Shown here: positions 9,158-10,072 of the stretch, in pieces
How positions within the stretch are numbered: the stretch's first letter is position 1
How the letters are laid out: every line of letters starts with the position of its first letter
From: a virus
Length of the DNA: 22,940 bases
IMG/VR virus record: IMGVR_UViG_3300030331_002161
Span: 1-22,940 of that record
Strand: one strand, 5' to 3'
Notes under the pieces: model-generated
The model's input: the letters and a program-made list of their open reading frames with translations, nothing else
Database searches by the model: none
Told to the model about the DNA's origin: nothing
Position numbers and translations under genes: made by a program

Positions 9158-9527
9158 AATTTATAAAAAATATTATTTTTCTGTAACCTTCTATATTTCT
9201 TGCAGTCTGTAACTTTTGTACCCTTCATATATAAATTACTAGCGACAAGTTTTATAATTTTTAATCTATCTATCCGTTACAAATTAGGCCATGCCATATT
9301 CATTTTTAAAAAAAATATAGGGGTATTTTTGCAGATGTTTTTATATGTAGTGAAACAAGGCTTTTATTTCTAAAAGGCTTATTTTATTGACCTGCTTGCG
9401 CAACATAATATATGTTATAGGACAAACAAACGGGAATGTAAATTTGCCTGGGGTCTATTCGTATTCGTAACAACATATTGTGTTATTGCCAATTTAATAC
9501 TATATAATGTGTATCTGTAAAGATATA
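9137..9527. other. Non-coding control region with GTTAC repeats and palindromes
   Basis: No convincing gene on either strand. It contains four minus-strand GTTAC copies (9143-9213), and a small GNRA-loop hairpin on the minus strand (CTTTTA-GAAA-TAAAAG near 9360-9376). There is a dyad AACATA-ATA-TATGTT (9402-9416) and the 15-base perfect palindrome at 9521-9535 at its right edge. A 21-codon minus-strand frame at 9341-9406 is preceded by TATAAC-N7-ATG but is too short to claim. Long A/T runs are frequent. The region looks like a regulatory hub or an origin. Confidence 0.4.
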
Positions 9528-9535
9528 CTATATCT
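9521..9535. repeat. Perfect palindrome AGATATA-C-TATATCT
   Basis: Seven-base arms around a single C. A further TATCT (9513-9517) upstream pairs with the left AGATA, giving three half-sites in about 23 bases. This is the look of an operator for a dimeric repressor. It overlaps the 3' end of the 39-aa minus-strand frame. Confidence 0.35.
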
Positions 9536-9647
9536 TGTGTTTGTTAATTGTTTTTGTAGATAAACTACACATATTAGGAGAACTATCACAATAAAAGTTA
9601 GTGTCATTTATTGATTTAAGTTTTCTTTTACATTCTTTGCATCTCAT
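9528..9647 (-). CDS. Possible 39-aa Zn-knuckle protein
   Basis: The reading frame opens MRCKECKRKLKSINDTNFYC and has C3-x2-C6, C20 and C27, a plausible zinc ribbon with a short basic tail (TKTINKHKI). There is no ribosome site. A TATAAA box at 9660-9665 would give a leader of only a few bases. Composition is that of a real small phage Zn protein, but the frame stands alone in a non-coding region, so it may be chance. Confidence 0.4.
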   Translation of the reverse strand: MRCKECKRKLKSINDTNFYCDSSPNMCSLSTKTINKHKI

Positions 9648-9738
9648 TAATAATGTAATTTTATAGAGGGTCATTTTGAATATAACGGGCTATTTTTTTT
9701 TATATTTTAAATTATGAACTAGGATGTTTTGCTAGACC

Positions 9739-9804
9739 TTGGGTACCTTACTTGTCTTTCTAGTTGGTCATGCTGGCTGCATGGTAAGGCTTTTGTACTC
9801 CCGA
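9739..9804. ncRNA. Candidate structured RNA (three-tier hairpin)
   Basis: Three complementary segments nest in register. GGGTAC (9741-9746) pairs with GTAC-T-CCC (9795-9802). CTTAC (9747-9751) pairs with GTAAG (9784-9788). CATGC (9769-9773) pairs with GCATG (9779-9783) around TGGCT. The inner two 3' strands are contiguous. A T-T/G-A pair extends the base. An alternative stem CTAGA (9732-9736)/TCTAG (9759-9763) is mutually exclusive with part of it. It is more G+C-rich than its surroundings and lies outside any gene. Strand is undetermined, and no T-run follows on either strand, so it is not a simple terminator. A tRNA was considered and rejected (no T-arm). Confidence 0.35.
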
Positions 9805-9898
9805 TGTCCCCTTTACCTGTATCTAACTACTATCTCCATGTTGTTTGCGATTAAACTCTACTAGAAAATTTCCTAACTTACAATTCAAAGAAAAAAAA

Positions 9899-10072
9899 TT
9901 AATACTCTATCCAGACACGAGAGCTGCGCTGTATCTTATGTTGATGACACATATCCTTAATAGAGTTTTGTTTGGTCCACCATAACTTGTCCAACATACT
10001 TACAGCCTCTTCCTCACTGTCTGCCTCAATGATATATTCCGTTGTTGTGGTATCTCTAAATTTGTATTTCAT
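9899..10072 (-). CDS. 57-aa hypothetical protein
   Basis: A clear small gene. MKYKFRDTTTTEYIIEADSE is strand-turn-strand, then EEEAVSMLDKLWWTKQ is an amphipathic helix, with a His/Cys stretch (DMCHQHKIQRSS) and a final strand RVWIEY. The pattern looks like the small beta-alpha-beta phage proteins whose helix begins S-x-E-E-A. Its leader is odd: the nearest ribosome-like sequence GGGAG is separated from the ATG by an A/T palindrome (10073-10089). Its stop is followed by a run of eight T on the minus strand, possibly a termination signal. Confidence 0.6.
   Translation of the reverse strand: MKYKFRDTTTTEYIIEADSEEEAVSMLDKLWWTKQNSIKDMCHQHKIQRSSRVWIEY

Follow-up and report, generated by a model that had tools for sequence, protein, structure and literature searches.

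A candidate leader RNA heading the early operon of uncultured, probably marine phages, and its exchange for an unrelated structured RNA

The window, i.e., the whole stretch of DNA analysed, is a 22,940-base IMG/VR record classed as linear. Its leftward genes span about 3.7–10.3 kb, and the rightward genes at its right end include those for the terminase large subunit (TerL; PHROG 38, 1.3e-74) and for a long conserved protein of family F1. The initial annotation had placed a possible new structured RNA at 9732–9804, in a gap without genes in the control region. The gap is gene-free only over about 9648–9898, with a 39-aa minus-strand ORF at 9528–9647, and the proposed segment, whose G+C content (0.45 vs about 0.25–0.33 in the surroundings) agrees with its description as G+C-richer than the flanks, falls within a longer element at 9730–9829. 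In all 19 phages compared, the element lies between the leftward early genes and terL; the terL start is 84 nt away in class B (defined below) and up to 1.8 kb away in others, with small genes in between. The first gene after the leader varies among members, and a small Cys-rich ORF is found there in many of them; no such ORF was present in the sequence inspected of the class B contigs L100, L116, L118 and L108. Elsewhere in this region, the stretch at 9899–10072, containing a 57-aa ORF, is conserved in L006, L007 and L009 but runs the other way round there, which points to a local inversion, and the palindrome AACATAATATATGTT at 9402–9416, which looks like an operator, belongs to a 26–27-nt stretch kept in the otherwise divergent L007, L023 and L036. 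The features of the locus are as follows.

9528–9647, minus strand: first leftward ORF, 39 aa, Cys-rich (MRCKECKRKLKSINDTNFYCDSSPNMCSLSTKTINKHKI), no Pfam match
9683–9690, minus strand: motif GCCYGYTA (TARCRGGC on the plus strand), ~45 nt downstream of the leader, with small variations among the type I carriers listed
9730–9829, minus strand: putative type I leader RNA, whole element (match to covariance model R1, 114.3 bits; alignments A1, A2 and A4; covariation)
9732–9737, minus strand: P0, 3′ arm (same pair counts as its 5′ arm)
9742–9745, minus strand: P1, 3′ arm, UACC (same pair counts as its 5′ arm)
9746–9751, minus strand: P2, 3′ arm (covariation, pair counts)
9752–9768, minus strand: purine-rich conserved unpaired strand ACCAACUAGAAAGACAA between P3 and P2′, UAGRAAS(R)CAA nearly invariant
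9769–9773, minus strand: P3 hairpin, 3′ arm (complementary stem variants)
9779–9783, minus strand: P3 hairpin, 5′ arm, pairing with 9769–9773 (complementary stem variants)
9784–9789, minus strand: P2, 5′ arm, pairing with 9746–9751 (in the five counted pairs both sides change; 100% paired on minus)
9795–9798, minus strand: P4, 3′ arm (pair counts)
9806–9809, minus strand: P4 small hairpin, 5′ arm, pairing with 9795–9798, loop AUCRGGA (pair counts)
9814–9817, minus strand: P1, 5′ arm, GGUR, pairing with UACC at 9742–9745 (paired in 43/43 on minus, the variable pair being A-U or G.U)
9821–9826, minus strand: P0, 5′ arm, pairing with 9732–9737 (five pairs changed on both sides across relatives; pair 9733–9825 above all nulls)
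9855–9860, minus strand: −10 of the putative leftward promoter, TAGAGT, spacer 17 (sigma70 PWM scan)
9878–9883, minus strand: −35 of the putative leftward promoter, TTGTAA (sigma70 PWM scan, consensus match only)

Comparison of the first relatives and a scan with an exact pattern revealed a patch of ~100 nt that is 85% identical between phages whose flanks cannot be aligned. A degenerate pattern from the 3′ part of the element (in plus notation) recovered at least 119 stretches, 63 of them distinct over the compared stretch, and altogether the ~100-nt element is kept in ~60 distinct homologues from more than 119 IMG/VR contigs; since collecting by pattern is biased towards members that retain it, diversity is underestimated and these abundances are lower bounds. 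The homologues fall into two classes: in class A, which includes the window, P3 is reached via a TTGGT junction, and in class B the junction is shorter and P3 differs. When a covariance model was built from class A alone, it retrieved class B at E-values between 1e-12 and 1e-20 (the next best match reached 15 bits), and it found exactly one copy per contig in all 20 longer contigs. The contigs are mostly fragments, and statements of absence in this study refer to the sequence examined. GTDB bacterial contigs contained no exact pattern match, and no host or prophage was found; blastn of the elements against isolate phage records returned nothing of substance, and TerL relatives among isolates showed ~30% identity or less among the matches listed. 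The designation of the carrier phages as marine is drawn from the sequences and the collection rather than from sample records, and is used here in that presumptive sense.

No Rfam 15 family matched the window at the gathering score or the element in eight divergent relatives with E up to 3. Permissive thresholds yielded chance matches only, e.g., BTnc231 outside the element (16.8 bits vs a gathering score of 80.4). A tRNA/tmRNA search found none at the element, consistent with its earlier description as not being a tRNA, and a search for structured RNAs of this kind in marine phages found none in the literature covered. In two relatives, compact sequences of 75–81 nt matched the tRNA-like part of RF00023 (L098:1039–1113 and L108:502–582, both on the minus strand), at 43.4 and 40.8 bits (E of 5e-14 and 6.5e-13; gathering score 47); they are without an mRNA-like region, ARAGORN finds nothing there, and they could possibly represent a phage mini-tmRNA, a decoy or an ssrA-derived attachment site.

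The consensus architecture consists of the nested helices P0-P1-P2-P3 plus the P4 hairpin, ~100 nt in total. The three nested stems proposed initially are all present as written, i.e., GGGTAC at 9741–9746 with GTACTCCC at 9795–9802, CTTAC at 9747–9751 with GTAAG at 9784–9788, and CATGC at 9769–9773 with GCATG at 9779–9783. The latter two correspond to P2 and P3 and are borne out by the relatives; the outer stem GGGTAC/GTAC-T-CCC is not supported, the conserved GGTA (9742–9745) pairing instead with TACC (9814–9817). The closing stem P0 (9732–9737/9821–9826) shows strong covariation, one P2 pair shows all four Watson–Crick types, and the P3 stem variants (CATGC, CTTAC, CAGG, ATCG, ATAC, ACTG, ACAC and ATAGGT) are all complementary. 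In P4, read on the minus strand, the outer pair is G-C, U-A, U.G or C-G in 43/43 and the inner one R-Y in 43/43, and one of the four pairs is broken in 25/43, the window among them. The stem CTAGA/TCTAG, from which a two-state switch had been suggested, occurs in the close kin of the window and is absent in other classes (e.g., GTTGT/CCTAG in L016), so that a switch of that kind is not supported.

On its own, the single sequence folds no better than chance (plus strand, z = +0.38, with 125/200 shuffles folding equally well or better; minus strand, z = −0.86, with 40/200). In the comparison, 94.4% of the cells for 19 pairs (P0, P1, P4 and P2) were paired on the minus strand, with 218 double-change cells vs 71.9 in shuffles (0/500), so that the compensatory substitutions named by the initial annotation as a test are plentiful. 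For class A alone, 95.5% of the cells pair, with 67 double-change cells vs 22.9 in shuffles. Covariation was assessed with a home-made, tree-preserving permutation test on the R-scape principle, and the two alignments and the shuffle tool agree. In the unguided MAFFT alignment, pairs 9749–9786, 9746–9789 and 9733–9825 exceeded every tree-based null, and the top-ranked pairs traced helices P0 and P2; in the structure-aware alignment, seven pairs in P0, P2 and P3 exceeded every null and three more had E ≤ 0.05, the P3 values being favoured because this alignment was fitted to P3. By these tests the covariation of several P0, P2 and P3 pairs is beyond what phylogeny explains and, judged from the conservation of its pairing, the segment 9730–9829 is a genuine folded RNA of ~100 bases, previously uncatalogued. 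Abundant compensatory changes, with no family match in Rfam 15, therefore uphold the suggestion that the control region holds a new structured RNA.

Relatives with and without this element, hereafter type I, were gathered by a TerL alignment search. Those without it carry a second conserved noncoding island of ~190 nt in the same slot, type II (about 47 loci, e.g., L249:3405–3650 and L228:3148–3356), in which a hairpin and a fully paired pseudoknot (CCAGCU/AGCUGG) both covary and for which Rfam has no match. Among the loci examined, 160 contained type I, 47 contained type II and none contained both. Type I was found in 14 and type II in 22 of the 41 TerL relatives with at least 1 kb of upstream sequence; the other five had neither type, each within less than 1.75 kb of upstream sequence. 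The TerL tree requires at least five changes between the types, all of them forced by well supported branches. At closer range, the homology between L228 (type II) and L226 (type I) reaches the start of the small Cys-rich ORF (L226:3713–3715), breaks across the leader and resumes over the −10 region (29 nt at 96.6%), and L278 (type II) and L281 (type I), which are 92–95% identical in TerL and its surroundings, lose homology at the leader. On the evidence of the tree and these breakpoints, related phages have repeatedly exchanged type I for a quite different folded RNA. The motif TARCRGGC was not found in the examined relatives without type I, i.e., type II phages; in many relatives a small hairpin lies between this motif and the type I element.

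The strand from which the RNA would be made was judged from wobble pairs and promoter-like sequences. The same 19 pairs are standard in 83.8% of cells when read on the plus strand vs the 94.4% on the minus strand, a difference that stems from P1 (A-U/G.U vs A.C), P4, the innermost P0 pair and one P2 pair; the variable P1 pair is broken in 20/42 on plus. Consensus folding shows a slight preference for minus (−11.43 vs −10.63), and wobble events in type I P0, P2 and P3 alone are near even between the strands (6.6 vs 8.6). In the type II stems, G.U pairs on minus account for 15.6 events plus 3 inferred ones vs 2 A.C, an independent sign that the slot is transcribed leftward. A plus-strand reading, suggested by the G.U fit of TTGGG/CCCGA on that strand, was given up because P1 (GGUR/UACC), P4, the type II wobbles and the promoter placement favour minus. 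A sigma70 scan to the left of the element gave no signal on either strand, and a plus-strand late leader ahead of terL was rejected for want of a sigma70-like signal there.

Promoters and terminators were called as pattern matches scored against shuffles. The putative leftward promoter (9855–9883) is a moderate consensus match, with a median shuffle rank of 18 of 100, and in 29/47 distinct relatives its −10 ends 23–30 nt from the element; in L226 and L228 the leftward −10 lies inside the palindrome TGATAAAGTTATCA. A stronger rightward promoter-like site (median shuffle rank 7.5 of 100) overlaps the leftward one at about 9830–9885 in the window. With this sigma70-like promoter candidate just upstream, the evidence points to the minus strand and to type I as the leader at the 5′ end of the leftward early operon. 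Most economically, transcription would run leftward, with the element within the first ~120 nt and the early genes after it. Many uncultured marine phages appear to begin their early transcript with type I RNA, and this placement, together with the repeated exchange, suggests that it steers the transcription of the genes downstream.

Leftward intrinsic terminator-like sites are enriched in the early units, with 13 in 19 phages vs 1.1 expected in shuffles. Several of them lie directly between consecutive leftward genes, with up to 12 leftward genes beyond, and strong ones occur in the early regions of L201, L203, L204, L210, L214 and L218 (e.g., TAGGGATGTGCGAAAGCATGTCCCTAG-CTTTTTTTT in L203). 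In lambdoid phages, nut or put is needed under just such an arrangement of terminators. The operon-head position, the indifference to the first gene and the replacement of the unit by an unrelated RNA suggest that the element acts in a general way, on the transcript or on the polymerase. Our preferred interpretation, held tentatively and at somewhat less than even confidence, is that type I serves in cis as an exchangeable leader RNA and alters how the early operon is transcribed, probably through put- or nut-like antitermination. RNA polymerase would start at the leftward promoter and transcribe ~20 nt before the element, which would fold into P0/P1/P2/P3 and the small P4 hairpin. Once folded, the leader would influence the early operon downstream, most probably through a change to the elongating polymerase, in which a host or phage protein may or may not take part, and the modified polymerase would read through terminators between early genes, as with put and nut RNAs. 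The early unit of the window has no clear internal terminator, and read-through would thus be unneeded there unless termination is rho-dependent or occurs further away. Further promoters may follow the terminators.

In lambdoid phages nut and put alternate, and lambda nutL (boxA/boxB, N-dependent) sits in the early leader. Type I resembles nutL in its place in the early leader, and the alternation of nut and put resembles the type I/II exchange. On the other hand, nut is a short site that depends on the phage N protein, whereas no early protein family within 8 kb occurs in all 19 type I carriers, the most widespread being present in 10/19, and no protein partner co-segregating with type I was found within 5–8 kb. 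Both nut and put have been described (PMC9378689), and HK022 put is ~70 nt long, comprises two neighbouring stem-loops just downstream of PL and acts alone on RNA polymerase (PMC9378689). Like putL and putR, type I is a structured, presumably cis-acting RNA just past a putative early promoter, heads an early operon with terminators and is one of several alternative modules in related phages; it differs in its ~100-nt nested P0/P1/P2/P3 and P4 as against two adjacent stem-loops of ~70 nt. The best match of R1 in the whole HK022 genome (12.7 bits, E of 0.25) lies away from the early leader. In antitermination and antipausing, put acts in cis through the zinc-binding domain of the RNA polymerase beta′ subunit. 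Since neither sequence nor architecture matches put, we would say, with the same sub-even confidence, that type I works like a put rather than that it is one. The EAR/epsC motif of Bacillus exopolysaccharide operons is likewise a structured leader RNA, with reported antitermination activity (PMC2864571), and differs in belonging to a bacterial operon rather than a phage. The manA and wcaG motifs are structured 5′-UTR RNAs from marine metagenomes and phages (PMC2864571) that precede metabolic genes of T4-like cyanophages, whereas type I, without a match to these or other Rfam families, heads an early operon in a different phage family.

The same leader position would also suit an RNA that binds a phage or host protein, or a small molecule, and thereby acts on the first early genes at the level of translation, stability or local attenuation, and the conserved unpaired purine-rich segments, which resemble binding sites, as well as the small Cys-rich ORF that comes next in many members, could be read in this way. 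However, no T-run terminator hairpin lies between the leader and the first gene in the window, where, as the initial annotation had stated, a terminator T-run is missing (no terminator-like site occurs in the 8.9–10.7 kb region). In addition, the first gene varies, the four class B contigs named above showing no Cys-rich ORF in the sequence inspected, and exchange between near-identical phages is more fitting for a general device than for a gene-specific sensor. We consider such a gene-specific leader unlikely. An independent trans-acting RNA, e.g., a decoy or regulator of host RNA polymerase or ribosome factors that is processed or terminated after the element, would be compatible with a compact, strongly conserved, single-copy element with its own promoter-like sequence, but is improbable in view of the missing downstream terminator, the obligate place at the head of the early operon and the exchange exactly at the leader slot.

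The adjacent large terminase gene raises a role in packaging or replication, as a pRNA-like molecule or as a primer or origin RNA. It would fit the 84-nt distance to terL in class B and the noncoding region between divergent units; yet in other members 1–2 kb and opposed genes come before terL, and the near-identical TerLs of L278 and L281 work with either of two unrelated RNAs, which is unexpected for a terminase partner, and we hold this role to be quite improbable. That the conserved unit is DNA, such as an operator, a pac or cos site or an origin with protein-bound inverted repeats, and gives no RNA, seems very improbable: the control region does contain palindromes and overlapping divergent promoters, but the strand asymmetry of wobble pairs in P1 and P4 of type I and in type II, the nested helices with variable loops and junctions, the type II pseudoknot and the purine-rich loops conserved on one strand all argue against it.

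Early antitermination by an interchangeable leader stays our preferred, if tentative, reading of type I. Its extension to both types, in which these two unrelated RNAs would be exchangeable antitermination devices that abundant marine phages use largely without protein help and swap as cassettes between one and the same promoter and the early operon, is possible but rather doubtful. To our knowledge, very few phage RNAs are thought to control the transcription of an early operon unaided, and those known to us come from lambdoid phages. The present analysis adds two RNA families, type I and type II, that are absent from Rfam 15. In a large family of uncultured, probably marine phages, two unrelated and strongly conserved putative leader RNAs share one slot and have been exchanged at least five times, and near-identical phages with either RNA, such as L278 and L281, provide a natural experiment on what the leader RNA is required for.
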